Of a DNA stretch of 42,968 nucleotides, positions 25,109-31,853 are shown one piece after another; the stretch's first letter is position 1; every line of letters starts with the position of its first letter. The notes beneath the pieces are model-generated. The model saw nothing but the letters and a program-made list of their open reading frames with translations. It did no database searches and was not told the DNA's origin. Made by a program: the position numbers and the translations under genes. Source of the stretch: Acidobacteriota bacterium (GTDB lineage Bacteria; Acidobacteriota; UBA6911); the NCBI GenBank assembly GCA_017860135.1, contig JAFNAG010000003.1, positions 1-42,968 on the forward strand, written 5' to 3'.

Positions 25109-26905
25109 TCAGGGTCGTGCCGCCCGGGAATCAATGTATCCCCGGATCATGTCCAGAAAATCACCCATGTCCCTGGAACCCGTATCCCCTTCGAACCGGT
25201 TTCGCACCGAAACACGTCCGCTCTCGGCTTCCTTGTCACCCACCACCAGCATGTACGGCACTTTTTGCGCCTGGGCTTCGCGGATCTTGTAGCCCATCTT
25301 TTCGTTTCTGTCATCGAGCCCGGCACGGAGGCCGGCCGTTCGCAGCCGTTCCATGATTTGCCGGGCATAGGAGTGATGGCGTTCCGAAATGGGGATCACC
25401 ACCACCTGCACCGGCGCCAGCCAGATCGGGAAAGCACCCGCGTAATGCTCGATCAGGACCCCGAAGAAGCGCTCGATGGATCCCAGAATCGCACGATGCA
25501 GCATCACCGGCTGGTGCGCCTGACCGTCGGGACCGATGTACTGCAGGTCGAAGCGCTTGGGCAGTGTAAAGTCGAACTGCACCGTGGAAAGCTGCCATGG
25601 CCGGCCGATGGCGTCAATCAGCTTCACGTCGATTTTGGGGCCATAGAAGACCGCTTCCCCTTCCATGCGCTCCCATTCGATCCCCCTGTCCTTCATGGCC
25701 TGAACGAGGGCCCCCTCCGACATTGCCCAGTCTTCCGCGGTTCCCGCGTACTTCTCCTGCCTGGACTCATCGCGCACGGAGAGTTCCACCTTGTATTGTT
25801 CGAACCCGAAACTCTTCATCACAAAGAGCACCAGGTCCAGCAGGGCGAGAATCTCGCCGTACACCTGATCCCGCGTGCAGAATATGTGCGCGTCGTCCTG
25901 CGTGAAGCCGCGCACGCGCAGCATGCCGTGCAGCACTCCGCTTTTCTCATATCGGTAGACAGTCCCGTATTCGGCGAAACGCAGCGGCAGATCGCGGTAG
26001 CTCCGCATCCTGGAGCGGTAGATCTCGATGTGGCCCGGGCAATTCATCGGCTTGATGACGAATTCCTCTTCGTCGATCTGGAAGGCGTACATGTTCTCCC
26101 GGTAATAGTCGTAATGCCCCGAAGTTCTCCACAGGCTATTCCGTGCCACATGGGGGGTCGTCACAAACTCATATCCCCTGTGGAGCAGCTCGGGAGTAAG
26201 GAACTTCTCGATTTCCATCCGCACCCGTGTGCCTTTGGGGTGCCAGAAAATCAATCCGGGGCCCGCCTCTTCGGAAATGCTGAACAGGTCGAGGTCGCGC
26301 CCCAACTTGCGGTGATCGCGCTTTTTCGCCTCTTCGATCTGATCGAGGTGCGCCTGCAACTCAGCCGCCGTGAGGAAAGCGGTCCCGTAGATCCGCTGCA
26401 ACCGCTGGTTGTGCTCGTCCCCCTTCCAATATGAACCGGCGACGCTTTGAAGGCGGAAGGTTGCCGGATCAATGTCGCCCGTCGAGACCACGTGGGGGCC
26501 CGTGCAGAAGTCGACCAGATCTCCCAGACGATAGCACGAGAGCATCTCCCCCGCCTTTTCCCGGATCAACTCCACTTTCAGATGCTCTCCACGGCCCTGG
26601 AAGTAATCGATCGCCTGCTCTTTGGGAAGAATGCTGGGCCGGTAGGGCAGTTTCGCGCGCACCAGTTCTCCCATCTTCCCCTCGATCCTTTCGAGATCTT
26701 CCTCCAGAAAACTCTCAGGGCGTTCGAAATCATAATAGAATCCATCGCTGATGGCGGGCCCGATACCGAGATGGGTCCCGGGAAACAGGGCGCTGACCGC
26801 CGCCGCCATCAGATGGGAGGTGCTGTGCCGATAAATCTCCAATTGCTCCTTGGGATCGATCACTTCACCGGTCTTGCCGTCTGCATAGATTACATTCAAT
26901 GGCAT
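25109..26905 (-). CDS. thrS: threonine--tRNA ligase lacking the TGS domain
   Basis: A 598-residue ThrRS. ATG 26905 begins MPLNVIYADGKTGEVIDPKE and reaches the editing domain HxxxH (YRHSTSHLMAAAV) after about 26 residues, so the roughly 60-residue N-terminal TGS domain of most ThrRS is missing. The editing site HxxxH plus DFCTGPH is intact. Catalytic features are MNCPGH, FAEYGTVYRYEKSGVLHGM, RVRGFTQDDAHIF and VMLHRAILGSIERF, including the zinc Cys/His/His. The anticodon-binding domain (APVQVVVIPISERH, MGYKIREAQAQKVPYMLVVGD) is complete. It lies 49 nt upstream of the infC start, as in many operons. Confidence 0.95.
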   Translation of the reverse strand: MPLNVIYADGKTGEVIDPKEQLEIYRHSTSHLMAAAVSALFPGTHLGIGPAISDGFYYDFERPESFLEEDLERIEGKMGELVRAKLPYRPSILPKEQAIDYFQGRGEHLKVELIREKAGEMLSCYRLGDLVDFCTGPHVVSTGDIDPATFRLQSVAGSYWKGDEHNQRLQRIYGTAFLTAAELQAHLDQIEEAKKRDHRKLGRDLDLFSISEEAGPGLIFWHPKGTRVRMEIEKFLTPELLHRGYEFVTTPHVARNSLWRTSGHYDYYRENMYAFQIDEEEFVIKPMNCPGHIEIYRSRMRSYRDLPLRFAEYGTVYRYEKSGVLHGMLRVRGFTQDDAHIFCTRDQVYGEILALLDLVLFVMKSFGFEQYKVELSVRDESRQEKYAGTAEDWAMSEGALVQAMKDRGIEWERMEGEAVFYGPKIDVKLIDAIGRPWQLSTVQFDFTLPKRFDLQYIGPDGQAHQPVMLHRAILGSIERFFGVLIEHYAGAFPIWLAPVQVVVIPISERHHSYARQIMERLRTAGLRAGLDDRNEKMGYKIREAQAQKVPYMLVVGDKEAESGRVSVRNRFEGDTGSRDMGDFLDMIRGYIDSRAARP

Positions 26906-27074
26906 GATTTTGATGCGCCCTTTCGGCCTGTTTGCCTCGGATCGCAAGGCAGGGAGAAAGGAACACACCTTCCCTGATCATCAGCTTGTAAATGGATTGG
27001 CGGATATGAGTTGCAACCGTGGTGCTGCCTTCATCGCGGTTATCCTGCCCGAGTTATGGATCCTGTGCGGATCA

Positions 27075-27149
27075 TGGTAGGCGCGAGCGGATTTGAACCG
27101 CTGACCCCTTCCGCGTCAAGGAAGTGCTCTCCCCCTGAGCTACGCGCCT
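27075..27149 (-). tRNA. tRNA-Val(GAC)
   Basis: A 75-nt cloverleaf with encoded CCA. The acceptor AGGCGCG pairs with CGCGCCT, the D-stem is GCTC/GAGC, and the anticodon stem CTTCC/GGAAG encloses the loop TTGACGC, giving anticodon GAC (reads GUC/GUU). The T-arm AGCGG-TTCAAAT-CCGCT is intact. Confidence 0.95.
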
Positions 27150-27216: not shown

Positions 27217-28473
27217 TCAAGGCATCTGCTTTTCAGCTGGCGGCCCCTTGGTCAAAACCTCGACTGCCCTGTCGAACTGCTCCTGATCGATTTTCGTCCG
27301 GAGCTGCCGGAATTTCGAGGAATCGTCCTGATCATCGAAATACGAATCCACGAGGAGATCCTGCAGGCGAAGCGGCTCAGGCGACTCGATGTCCGGCTTG
27401 ATTCCGGTCTCCCGCACCGATTCGTCGTTCTCGATCAGCTTGCCGTCCGGCGTATAGAACTTCGCCGTGGACAGTATGAGGACAGCACCGCTTTTCAGCT
27501 CGATCCGCTTCTGCACCGATCCCATGCCGTAGGATCTTTCCCCCACCACTCTCGCTCTTCCGGAAGCCTTGAGCGCGCCGGCAACGATCTCGGCAGGGCC
27601 CGCAGTCGATCCGTTGATCAGAACGGCCATGGGAAGATCCGTCAGAAACTTTTCCGGATCCGCCTTGATTTCCTCCAGAACCTCTCCCAGGCGGCCTTTC
27701 ACAATGTATATGGGCCCGTTCCGAATGAAAAGATTCGCAAGTTCGGCGCCCTGCTCCGGCTTTCCGCCGGCACAATCCCTGAGGTCCAGAAGCAGTTTTT
27801 GCGCGCCGGCGGAAATCAGCGTCTTCAATTTGACACGCGTCTGGTCGAGGTTCGTGGCGGCCAACGACCGTACTTCGAGGAAGCCGATCCGGCCATCCAG
27901 CATGCGGGTTACCGCAGGTTGCGGGTCCGCATTGGCGCGCACCATTGCAATCTCGACAGGTTTGGTTTGCGAGCCTCGAAACACAGTCGCCTTGACCTTG
28001 CTGCCGGGAGTTCCCCGGAGCATGCTCTCGGCCTCCAGCAGGCTCGTGTCCTCCACATTGGCACCGTCGATCGAAACCAGGTAGTCCCCGGGGCGCATGC
28101 CGGCAGAGTCAGCAGGGCCGTTCTGAGTGGTCGCAACGACGTAGAGGATATTCGACCGCTTGGACAGCACCAGACCGACCTCCGCCGTATTGCCCTTTTG
28201 GCTGTCCAGCGCGCCTATCTGTTCCTTTGTCAGGTATGAGCTGTAGGGATCGAGTGCGTCAATCAGTCCCTGCATGGCGCCTTCCTGCACCTTGCTCATT
28301 TCCGGAGGCTCGACATAGTCGTCGTTGACCGTCTTCAGGGATTCCATGAACACGGAGAGCGCCGGGTAGGCGTCATCCTTGGCAACCACTTTTCCATAAA
28401 ACGCGGCCGAAACCCCGTACAGGACGATCAGCGTCGACAGCAGGACAACCAGCACTTTTCCCTTGTGAAGCAT
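27217..28473 (-). CDS. S41 (CtpA/Prc-like) peptidase homologue without catalytic Ser-Lys
   Basis: A 418-residue protein with an N-terminal signal anchor (about 7-25), a cap/dimerisation region, a PDZ domain (about 95-180, with GPADSAGMRPGDYLVSIDG) and an S41 core. ATG 28473 has GGAGGT just upstream. Active enzymes read TASASEI/SASASEI, with the nucleophile three residues before Glu, and TFGKG, with the general-base Lys 25 residues later. Here the positions read STAGPAEI (Gly292) and SYGMGSVQ (Met317) at exactly that spacing. Both catalytic residues are therefore replaced while the fold and PDZ look intact. It is probably an envelope pseudoprotease that binds C-termini or another protease; the partner is unknown. 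Confidence 0.9.
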   Translation of the reverse strand: MLHKGKVLVVLLSTLIVLYGVSAAFYGKVVAKDDAYPALSVFMESLKTVNDDYVEPPEMSKVQEGAMQGLIDALDPYSSYLTKEQIGALDSQKGNTAEVGLVLSKRSNILYVVATTQNGPADSAGMRPGDYLVSIDGANVEDTSLLEAESMLRGTPGSKVKATVFRGSQTKPVEIAMVRANADPQPAVTRMLDGRIGFLEVRSLAATNLDQTRVKLKTLISAGAQKLLLDLRDCAGGKPEQGAELANLFIRNGPIYIVKGRLGEVLEEIKADPEKFLTDLPMAVLINGSTAGPAEIVAGALKASGRARVVGERSYGMGSVQKRIELKSGAVLILSTAKFYTPDGKLIENDESVRETGIKPDIESPEPLRLQDLLVDSYFDDQDDSSKFRQLRTKIDQEQFDRAVEVLTKGPPAEKQMP

Positions 28474-28508
28474 CGTACCTCCGCTTCTTGCAGTATCCAA
28501 ACTTTGGA

Positions 28509-28537
28509 ATTATATAGTACGAAATCCCCTGCAGCAA
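28509..28537 (-). promoter_or_regulatory. promoter of the S41 homologue gene
   Basis: On the minus strand: TTGCTG (plus 28532-28537), a 17-bp spacer, then TATAAT (plus 28509-28514, perfect). The predicted leader is about 29 nt and contains GGAGGT. Confidence 0.6.
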
Positions 28538-28789
28538 CCAATTCCATGATCGGCGTGCCTCGGCAAGCGTGTGCTTGTTGGATCACGTGGAAGCCACACC
28601 CGCTGCGTTGCGGTCACGGCACTGACCAGCGGCATGGCCTGTAGCGCGATTGCCGCAGCATCACGCACTTCTGCATTATGGAGCTCTGCAGTCCTGACCA
28701 GCGGGCAGGTTGTTCCGCGCGTGACCGTTGGCTCTCGTGGACTTGGCATCCGCCTTGACGCGTATTGCCCGGTATGTTCCAATGATTCC
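28538..28789. other. intergenic region before ruvX
   Basis: About 250 bp between divergent genes. No gene was recognised and no convincing plus-strand promoter was found. The ruvX frame is open through it, but the upstream residues do not look like RuvX. Confidence 0.5.
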
Positions 28790-29206
28790 GTGGACCGCGG
28801 TCGAATTCTGGCGTTGGATTATGGTACGAAAAACGTGGGGCTTGCCTCGAGTGACGAGCTGGGGATTACGGTGCGCCCACTTCCCTCCCTCCCGAACGTC
28901 AATCGCCGTGACCTGATGCGCCGGCTGAAAACGGCCGTCCGGGACAACGCGATCGATTCGCTGGTTGTCGGAATTCCCATGAATATGGACGGCAGCGCCG
29001 GCGCCGCCGTGCAAGGCGTGCAGCGCTTCATCGAAGCGCTGCGGCGCGAGTTCGGCCTGCCACTGTGGACCGTTGATGAGCGCCTCTCGACTGTCGAGGC
29101 ATTGGAGATCTGGAGAGGGATGAGCACCAGGCGGCAGCGCAGGTACAGAACCGTTGATTCCCTGGCCGCCGCACTCATTCTGGAGAGGCTCCTGAGGGAA
29201 TCCTGA
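28790..29206 (+). CDS. ruvX: RuvX/YqgF family Holliday-junction resolvase-like nuclease
   Basis: A 138-residue RNase H-fold protein. GTG 28790 gives VDRGRILALDYGTKNVGLA, where the conserved Asp-Tyr-Gly motif falls at the family position. Other blocks are SLVVGIPMNMDGSAG, WTVDERLSTVEA and the C-terminal VDSLAAALILERLL with the last catalytic Asp. Members act in 16S rRNA 5' processing and have been proposed as Holliday-junction resolvases. It ends 1 bp before mltG, a common pairing (yqgF-mltG). No clear ribosome-binding site is seen. Confidence 0.9.
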   Translation: MDRGRILALDYGTKNVGLASSDELGITVRPLPSLPNVNRRDLMRRLKTAVRDNAIDSLVVGIPMNMDGSAGAAVQGVQRFIEALRREFGLPLWTVDERLSTVEALEIWRGMSTRRQRRYRTVDSLAAALILERLLRES

Positions 29207-29207
29207 A

Positions 29208-30233
29208 GTGCGCAGACTCCTCCCGCTGCTGATCTTATTGATCGGCGCCCTGGCTGCCGGCGTCGCGTTCTGGACGTATTCGGAGCTCACCACGCCCTAC
29301 TACTCTCCCGGCGGCTCGGAGATTTTCATAGAAATCCCCCGTGGAGCCGGGACGCGAGACATCGCGGGCCTGCTCCAGGCGGGCGGCGCAATCCGGCACG
29401 CGTTGCCCTTTGTCCTCTATGTCAAGTGGACCGGGCTGGACAGGCGGCTGCAGGCGGGTGAATATCGTTTCGCCGAACCGGCCAATCCGTCGCAGGTTGC
29501 CGGCCGGCTGCTATCCGGGGACGTCTATTACCGCACGATCACGATCCCGGAAGGACTCACCGCCCTGGAAACGGTGGATTTGCTGTCCCGTAACGGAATC
29601 GGCGACCGGCAGGAGCTTGAGCGCCTGCTGCGACGGGTGGAGTGGATTGCGGACCTGGATCCGGAGGCCGGCAGCCTCGAGGGTTACCTGTTCCCGGAAA
29701 CGTATCGATTCCCCCGCAGGATCGGTCCGGAAGAGGTCCTGAAAGCCATGGTACGTGAATTCCGCCAGCGCTTTTCACCGCTGTGGGCGGCAGGTCCCCA
29801 ACCCGAAAACCGGCGCGCTCGCGATATCGTGATCCTCGCCTCCCTGGTGGAAAAAGAAGCCCGGAACTCCGGCGAGCGGCGCCTCGTGTCGTCGGTGATG
29901 TGGAATCGGCTCCGGTTGCGGATGCCGCTTGCCTGTGATCCAACCATTATTTATGCGCTCAAGCAGAACGGCACGTACGACGGGAACCTGCGCAGGCAGG
30001 ATCTGGAGATCGACTCCCCCTACAATTCATACCGGCGCCTGGGGCTCCCCCCGAGCCCGATTGCAAACCCGGGAGAGGATTCCCTCCAGGCCGCGCTTTC
30101 GCCAACTGCAACCGCTTATCTCTACTATGTTTCGAAAAACGACGGAACGCACGTATTCTCCAGAGACCTGAACTCCCACCTTGCAGCAGTCGCACGCTAC
30201 CAGAGGGGCGCCTCACGCCCCAAATCGCGCTAG
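29208..30233 (+). CDS. mltG: endolytic peptidoglycan transglycosylase MltG
   Basis: A 341-residue membrane-anchored lytic transglycosylase that cleaves nascent glycan strands and is thought to release them from synthesis. One N-terminal membrane helix (about 4-22) is followed by a LysM-like segment (IEIPRGAGTRDIAGLL and TITIPEGLTALETVDLL). The YceG catalytic domain has SLEGYLFPETYRF, ASLVEKEA with the catalytic Glu215, NRLRLRMPLACDPTIIYAL and SPYNSYRRLGLPPSPIANPG. All motifs are intact. It starts with GTG 1 bp after the ruvX stop. Confidence 0.95.
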   Translation: MRRLLPLLILLIGALAAGVAFWTYSELTTPYYSPGGSEIFIEIPRGAGTRDIAGLLQAGGAIRHALPFVLYVKWTGLDRRLQAGEYRFAEPANPSQVAGRLLSGDVYYRTITIPEGLTALETVDLLSRNGIGDRQELERLLRRVEWIADLDPEAGSLEGYLFPETYRFPRRIGPEEVLKAMVREFRQRFSPLWAAGPQPENRRARDIVILASLVEKEARNSGERRLVSSVMWNRLRLRMPLACDPTIIYALKQNGTYDGNLRRQDLEIDSPYNSYRRLGLPPSPIANPGEDSLQAALSPTATAYLYYVSKNDGTHVFSRDLNSHLAAVARYQRGASRPKSR

Positions 30234-30574: not shown

Positions 30575-31180
30575 GTGCGAACGAATCCCGTATCTTATCA
30601 ACATGTTAAGCGGCTTGCGGCGTTTGTGGTTCTCCTGTTTTTAAGTTGCTCGGGGCTGGCTCTGTTCTCATTGGGCCAGAACAGCCGGCCCTCTCTGCCC
30701 GATCCCATCAAATTCGTCAAAAAGCGGGATCTGGTTATGCGTGCTTCGCGCGCTGTCCTGGAGGAGATGGGTTACAGGATCGAACTCGAGGACATGCAAA
30801 ACGGGCGGCTGGTGTCACGGCCCTACGAATTCATCACCGGCGCTCTGACCTCCGCCGAGATTGACAAAGTCGCCAACAAGACGGACACGATCACGGGAAG
30901 CTGGCTGAAGGCCCGCTACACGGTGGAAGCGTTGTTCGAAATGATCTCTCCCACGGAAACCATGGTGACGGTGCGCACCCAGATGGAAGCGCTGAACCGG
31001 GATTCCGACGGCAGCGAGAAGTGGTTGCCGCTGCAGTCCCTCGGCAGCGTGGAAAAGCGAATCCTGGGCAAGATCAGCATGAAACTGCTGGGCACGGAAC
31101 CGGCTTTCAAAGATAACAAGGGCTTTTGGGATCAGAAGCCAACGCCTCCTGTCCCGATCAAAAAGCGGCCTGCCGACTAG
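30575..31180 (+). CDS. predicted secreted protein of unknown function
   Basis: A 201-residue protein. The first 35 residues look like a signal peptide (VKRLAAFVVLLFLSCSGLAL). The mature part begins around KFVKKRDLVMRASRAVLEEMG, followed by a mixed alpha/beta region resembling small envelope proteins that read like DUF/BamC-type domains (YRIELEDMQNGRLVSRPYEF and TGSWLKARYTVEALFEM). I do not recognise the family. It heads a unit with a two-TM protein and two ABC exporter subunits, which suggests a periplasmic accessory role. The promoter position implies that GTG 30575 is the 5' end of the mRNA. Confidence 0.7.
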   Translation: MRTNPVSYQHVKRLAAFVVLLFLSCSGLALFSLGQNSRPSLPDPIKFVKKRDLVMRASRAVLEEMGYRIELEDMQNGRLVSRPYEFITGALTSAEIDKVANKTDTITGSWLKARYTVEALFEMISPTETMVTVRTQMEALNRDSDGSEKWLPLQSLGSVEKRILGKISMKLLGTEPAFKDNKGFWDQKPTPPVPIKKRPAD

Positions 31181-31184
31181 CCTA

Positions 31185-31853
31185 ATGTCCAACCTCCTGC
31201 TCACCTATGATCCGCTCTACACTCGCATCGCCTTAGCCGCTTTGGCGCTCCTGCTCGTCGCTGCTTATCTGATGTTTTATCTGAGGCGCGCGCGCAAGGC
31301 GCGGGTGCAGCAGCAGGCGGCGCGCCCTCCCGCATCCGGGTCCCCCGATGCCCATCTGTTCGAGCGCAGCGTGGTTCCGAGCCCGACTGTAGCTGCGGAT
31401 CTGCTGCGCGGCCTGCTCATCGTCCTGGCGCTGGTGGTCGCCGCGGGATTTTCCCTGATCCTCCTCCCTCAGAGCACCCTGGACAGCGTCGTTCAGGGTC
31501 TTCTCCTCAGGAATGCTCCTCCGCCGGCGCAGGAAAGGATCGCTCTGCTCTATCTGGGGGATGAAACCCAGGGGAAGGAGTTTCGCATCCGCGGAGTGAT
31601 CCGCAACATCTCGGCGGAGCCGATCGAGAAGCTCGATGCCGCCATACGCCTGTACGCATCGGACGGGACGCTGCTGGAAACTGCGATAGTCCGAATGGAC
31701 GCGGAAACGGTCACGCCGGATGCCACCTCCACGTTTACGCTTTCCTACCCGGAGTATGACGGGCGATTTGCGCGCTATTCCCTTGACTTCAAGCTTCGTC
31801 AGGGGGACATCCTTCCGTACAAGGACATGCGGGCGGCGCACGAGCGCGGTTGA
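31185..31853 (+). CDS. two-TM membrane protein of unknown function
   Basis: A 222-residue protein with two membrane helices (about 15-34, IALAALALLLVAAYLMFYL, and about 76-95, LLIVLALVVAAGFSLILL) joined by a basic loop. The C-terminal domain (about 115-215) looks like a beta-sandwich of the FxLYD/DUF3426 kind: RIRGVIRNISAEPIEKLDA, AIRLYASDGTLLETAIV, ATSTFTLSYPEY. It follows the secreted protein by 4 bp and precedes the ABC pair by 22 bp, so it probably belongs to the same unit. The function is unknown. Confidence 0.7.
   Translation: MSNLLLTYDPLYTRIALAALALLLVAAYLMFYLRRARKARVQQQAARPPASGSPDAHLFERSVVPSPTVAADLLRGLLIVLALVVAAGFSLILLPQSTLDSVVQGLLLRNAPPPAQERIALLYLGDETQGKEFRIRGVIRNISAEPIEKLDAAIRLYASDGTLLETAIVRMDAETVTPDATSTFTLSYPEYDGRFARYSLDFKLRQGDILPYKDMRAAHERG

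Follow-up and report, generated by a model that had tools for sequence, protein, structure and literature searches.

A putatively non-proteolytic S41 protease homologue maintained across Acidobacteriota in the neighbourhood of peptidoglycan genes

The closest described counterpart of the protein presented here, named pseudo-CTP, is CtpA of the Pseudomonas aeruginosa LbcA-CtpA system, a carboxy-terminal processing protease (CTP) of family S41 that degrades cell-wall hydrolases. The layout of N-terminal dimerisation region (NDR), PDZ domain, cap and core is common to CtpA and pseudo-CTP, and the ancestral-type locus, M23/envC followed by ctpA and a deacetylase, is common to CtpA and many members of the pseudo-CTP family. 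The two differ in the triad, which is Ser302-Lys327-Gln331 in CtpA (PMC8764530) and Gly-Met-Gln in pseudo-CTP, as well as in the clade-specific PDZ loop and tail of the latter. Bacillus subtilis CtpB and Escherichia coli Prc (Tsp) present the same S41 and PDZ architecture but, unlike pseudo-CTP, both are active Ser-Lys proteases, and Prc has additional domains and a length of about 680 aa. MltG and MepS are under Prc control. NlpI and LbcA are well-known CTP adaptors. An S41-type fold without proteolysis, as proposed for pseudo-CTP, occurs in retinol-binding protein 3 (IRBP), an animal non-peptidase S41 homologue matched by our protein at the sequence level (9frx, E 2.8e-7); IRBP is, however, an extracellular retinoid carrier built of repeated modules, without a PDZ domain and with unrelated biology. 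Maintained pseudoproteases that regulate the pathway of an active protease are represented by iRhoms and Clostridioides difficile CspC/CspA, which offer an analogy only, with rhomboid and subtilisin folds and roles in other pathways. Pseudoproteases are already known as a kind, and in the open-access literature we found no description of a bacterial S41 pseudoprotease clade conserved through a phylum; no paper on envC-linked replacement of CtpA by a dead form was found in open-access text either.

The gene lies on the minus strand at positions 27217..28473 of the window, by which we mean the whole analysed stretch of 42,968 nucleotides, and codes for an S41/PDZ homologue of 418 aa in which the catalytic Ser and Lys are missing. 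A previous sequence-only reading of this DNA had placed the gene correctly and described a clean frame with intact expression signals. The frame is indeed clean, with 418 codons from the ATG at 28473 to the stop at 27217-27219 and no internal stops, and a GGAGG ribosome-binding site can be read directly 4 nt before the ATG (28478..28482, minus). The promoter claim was borne out only partly, because the automatic scan upstream of the gene gave no complete sigma-70-type -35/-10 pair and no -35, while a possible -10, TATAAT, is read directly at 28509..28514 (minus).

Pfam assigns the protein to the S41 family through its core domain at 27385..27891 (minus; PF03572 Peptidase_S41, 1.1e-35, 123.1 bits against a cut-off of 24), and the score for the CTP subfamily stays below threshold (TIGR00225, 204.6 bits against 218.6). 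The best relatives of solved structure are those of P. aeruginosa CtpA (7rpq, E 4e-45). Because pseudo-CTPs match S41 profiles well, automatic annotation is likely to name them "S41 family peptidase", with an impossible activity. Residues 6-24 (28402..28458, minus) form a hydrophobic segment, predicted to be an export signal or membrane anchor, in which Ser13 is retained in 94% of orthologues in the alignment of 97. The phmmer alignment to the CtpA NDR identifies residues 39-85 (28219..28359, minus) as the equivalent of the dimerisation region; the PF22694 score in the window protein is slightly under the cut-off, and mean entropy of the region among the 97 pseudo-CTP sequences, 1.79, is among the lowest apart from catalytic-site motifs. 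The PDZ domain comprises residues 96-176 (27946..28188, minus). A single-sequence AlphaFold2 model reached a pLDDT of 38, too low to be of use. The protein should retain the fold of CTPs, including the dimerisation region at its N terminus and the PDZ module.

Alignments to CtpA by phmmer and among orthologues both place Gly292 (27598..27600, minus) at the catalytic Ser site and Met317 (27523..27525, minus) at the catalytic Lys site. Gly292 aligns exactly with the residue that distinguishes wild-type from S302A CtpA crystal constructs, Met317 stands opposite Lys327 at a spacing of exactly 25 residues, and the third triad residue is retained as Gln321 (27511..27513, minus), opposite Gln331 and present in 87 of 97 orthologues. 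The proposed replacement of both catalytic residues is thereby confirmed, and it extends phylum-wide. Among 97 distinct pseudo-CTP sequences, the residue at the Ser site is Gly in 85 sequences, Ser in 4 and Ala in 2, with other residues in the remaining 6, and the Lys site is freely variable (A, R, E, L, Q, M, V, T, D, I, S, H, W, F, G) and never Lys. All 54 active S41 controls, comprised of 24 sequences from the same phylum (including the genome's own paralogue) and the 30 best Pseudomonadota matches, have Ser, Lys and Gln at these sites. Presence of Lys in 0/97 against 54/54 active relatives is far beyond chance, and Lys is also missing from all four orthologues whose Ser site does hold Ser. 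The fixation of the Ser site as Gly, together with drift at the Lys site, therefore points to an old loss, after which the fold rather than catalysis was constrained. An alternative Ser-Lys pair in register was ruled out, as the 97-sequence alignment shows no conserved Lys or His in the core; orthologues with intact residues, which would likewise contradict the loss, were looked for and none was found. In three loci of the window's family (L009, L010, L012), the nucleophile position is again Ser, but the Lys position is taken by Met, Val or Ala.

The approximately 97 orthologues come from about 40 families of the phylum and group as one clade. They were detected in 13 of 14 other genomes of the window's family, practically throughout its class, and then across the phylum; in families at first apparently without a pseudo-CTP, the copies are divergent and measure about 385-435 aa. 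In a 114-row tree, pseudo-CTP rows make up one side of a branch (SH-aLRT 99), with only L003, a further S41/PDZ protein of the same genome, standing apart; they again form one side of a branch (SH-aLRT 95) in a 92-row tree with Prc as outgroup. Both trees are quick ones, without bootstrap and with a few long rows uncertainly placed, and the sequence relationships are compatible with a single origin of the clade. NG86 dN/dS values over 12 moderately diverged pairs range between 0.04 and 0.25, which means purifying selection. This result, and the catalytic loss fixed in orthologues across the phylum, agree with the maintained pseudoprotease suggested earlier. By its sequence, pseudo-CTP can be described as an exported protein with PDZ and S41 fold, devoid of the catalytic dyad and kept under selection. 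Outside the phylum, the 30 best matches in a search of 150 Pseudomonadota genomes are all active. The only match in the genome-contig scan is a weak one to an Alteromonas PDZ, and the plasmid scan gave more distant S41 peptidases of 29.6-34% identity, none of them by identity near the pseudo-CTP clade. One apparent truncated or chimeric orthologue (L063, genome G026) was dismissed and excluded; a run of N at L063:8450-8565 marks a scaffold gap inside the pseudo-CTP gene, and the frame beyond it is unrelated.

In the window, pseudo-CTP is followed on the minus strand by tRNA-Val(GAC) at 27075..27149, in a conserved position, and by thrS at 25109..26968, which starts the conserved thrS-infC-rplT-pheS-pheT block. 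Divergently, on the plus strand, are located ruvX (28571..29206; PF03652, 6e-37), with an open frame from a GTG and the RuvX domain from about 28802, and mltG, coding for a YceG lytic transglycosylase (29208..30233; PF02618, 9e-80). This arrangement is that of the window's class, with ruvX and mltG as conserved neighbours, and the gene faces ruvX-mltG in other classes too; in L062 the pair is inverted and still adjoins pseudo-CTP. The tRNA-Val(GAC) gene lies between pseudo-CTP and thrS in most members of the class and in some other classes. In much of the class, two conserved proteins (30575-31180 and 31185-31853 in the window, plus strand), neither with a Pfam match, are found between mltG and ABC transporters.

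Other families show different neighbours. An EnvC-like M23 gene, pseudo-CTP and a divergent polysaccharide deacetylase follow one another in six loci (L184, L185, L186, L188, L192, L194), and M23 precedes pseudo-CTP in about 20 further loci. Family f18 has pseudo-CTP followed by a PBP1-type and a PASTA protein, and the arrangement recurs in L199, without PASTA, and in L204, a contig from a viral collection. Loci which combine M23 with divergent ruvX-mltG (L078, L081, L201, and with overlapping open frames L080 and L195) connect the different arrangements. The link to peptidoglycan genes thus persists across pseudo-CTP loci despite changing neighbours. As housekeeping genes, ruvX, thrS and rplT may, however, owe their conserved order to other causes. 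Among active CtpA loci of the Pseudomonadota controls, M23-S41 is present in 28/30 and S41-deacetylase in 25/30, and envC-ctpA-PA5135 is a known P. aeruginosa operon (PMC12569750). The M23-S41-deacetylase order is common to the dead copy, to active CtpA controls and to this operon, and the simplest history therefore makes the dead protein an orthologue of CtpA by position; we infer that the loss of catalysis predates the split of the sampled families, and that the locus broke up later while its tie to peptidoglycan genes lasted.

The PDZ domain, previously regarded as intact, is recognized as such by a PDZ_2 match (7.8e-12), but its carboxylate-binding loop is degenerate, with EVGL in place of GLGI. 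The G[LIVMF]G pattern is found in 20 of 97 pseudo-CTP sequences, compared with 54 of 54 active ones, which makes classical C-terminus binding by the protein's own PDZ less likely. The ligand may instead be supplied by its C-terminal tail. Sixty-six of 99 pseudo-CTP proteins end with -Ala-Ala, 42 of them with -KAA. The same end is present in 0/55 active S41 proteins and in 7/203 neighbouring proteins (six of the seven being rplT products), the latter serving as the background in place of the whole proteome. The -AA tail comes after a short conserved helix and a linker, mostly 5 to 21 residues long, and variability within the tail is lowest at positions -1 and -2 (1.56 and 1.72 bits, compared with 2.7-3.6 for -3 to -15). 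A 56-row tree requires at least 11 changes of the trait, an -AA end occurs in 6 of 19 rplT products, and Lys/Ala-rich ends can be partly driven by composition. The window's own protein ends with -EKQMP and has no -AA tail. The substrates degraded by Prc include proteins whose C termini are nonpolar or of the SsrA type (PMC5686067), and the Prc PDZ is a binder of C-terminal peptides (PMC5686067, PMC7481392); by analogy, the tail looks like a ligand of CTP PDZ domains. In E. coli, MltG, MepS and PBP3 are themselves without nonpolar tails (PMC7481392).

Active CTPs are present alongside the dead one. The draft genome of the window (G000, 715 contigs) encodes the active paralogue L002 with SASASE...SFGKG motifs, which the sequence-only reading had named as a supporting result, and long paralogues of about 535-700 aa fetched across the phylum have the Ser-Lys pair in 23/23.

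These observations have to be weighed against explanations other than regulation of an active CTP, of which two are serious rivals. The first, possible although the odds are against it, is a stand-alone scaffold whose PDZ and closed S41 groove bind peptidoglycan enzymes, organising or protecting them without contact with an active CTP. It would be consistent with peptidoglycan genes beside pseudo-CTP in all main arrangements and with the conserved groove, where mean entropy of the nucleophile loop is 1.43 and Gly316, Gln321, Glu295, Asp230 and Arg232 are kept, but it leaves both the frequent -AA tail and the degenerate carboxylate loop unexplained. The second, rather doubtful, is a decoy or inhibitor that spares cell-wall hydrolases, either by filling the PDZ of an active CTP with its tail or by poisoning mixed oligomers with dead subunits. 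PDZ and dimer interfaces are points of regulation in CTPs, and the tail, absent from active enzymes, and the conserved dimerisation region are in line with such a role; the window's protein, however, lacks the tail, and mixed dimers are not assured because pseudo and active copies diverged long ago. Far less probable is that the S41 (ClpP/crotonase-like) fold still supports catalysis by another chemistry, as a peptidase or other hydrolase using for example Thr290/Glu295. The loop around the old nucleophile is little diverged, Thr290 is kept in 94%, and Glu295, Asp230 and Arg232 in practically all sequences, yet the last three are equally fixed in active S41 proteins, where position 290 is Ser, so these residues may be structural, and the core offers no conserved Lys or His. 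Ordinary decay of a recently inactivated or mis-sequenced ctpA, for which the two substitutions in this single genome are the only argument, has a negligible probability given the same loss in about 40 families, the low dN/dS and the conserved length and locus; a strain lesion or sequencing error is ruled out by orthologue conservation and dN/dS.

Regarding the reading we prefer, it is very probable that pseudo-CTP is a maintained non-proteolytic S41 homologue, as judged by its sequence. Conserved gene context makes a role in peptidoglycan control likely, although gene neighbourhood falls short of proof of function, and both statements taken jointly are still rather likely. That the protein works through an active CTP is suggested tentatively. 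The proposed mechanism would start from an ancient, phylum-wide pseudoprotease clade descending from envC-linked CtpA and often still placed at its chromosomal position, whose members would cut no peptides by the S41 Ser-Lys mechanism. In the window's class, pseudo-CTP would act non-proteolytically on the divergently encoded MltG; in other families, its partners would be EnvC-like M23 proteins, a divergent polysaccharide deacetylase or a PBP1-type enzyme. The likeliest route would be regulation of the active CTP also encoded in the genomes checked, contacted through mixed assembly at the dimerisation region, through the -Ala-Ala tail offered to the active PDZ, or through both, the tail route not being directly applicable to the window's protein. 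In E. coli, Prc has MltG among its substrates and regulates it without the adaptor NlpI, and unknown accessory factors were proposed (PMC7481392). In this phylum, the dead CTP whose gene faces mltG would be an attractive candidate for such an accessory role. The PDZ-based adaptor or regulator of active CtpA, guessed in the sequence-only reading, is compatible with the data. In its most complete form, the proposal is unlikely as a whole: the phylum would have swapped envC-linked CtpA for a dead form which, with its -Lys-Ala-Ala tail as a built-in PDZ ligand and also as a subunit of active CTP, sets turnover of MltG, EnvC-type amidase activators and PBPs.

If pseudo-CTPs directly regulate an active CTP or cell-wall enzymes, they would represent a natural separation of CTP binding from cutting, and provide a handle on the control of peptidoglycan hydrolases in a large and little-studied soil phylum. 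If the reading of dead and active CTPs is true, a pair of pseudoprotease and protease would govern cell-wall growth.

Two additional observations concern single contigs. The one clade member found by a scan of the viral collection (L204:4902-6107, RGTAGAAE...FGAGSVQ) resides on the IMG/VR contig mentioned above, beside PBP1-type and DNA-methylase-like genes; the contig is probably host DNA, adjoining a prophage or mistaken for one. In addition, L003 (G000:C274:1455-2546, minus) is a third S41/PDZ protein of the window's genome; its contig could be contamination (the genome is 7.6% contaminated). Placed outside the pseudo-CTP clade, L003 has Ser present (TASAAE) and Thr replacing Lys (TFGTG), and is a possible second type of S41 pseudoenzyme.
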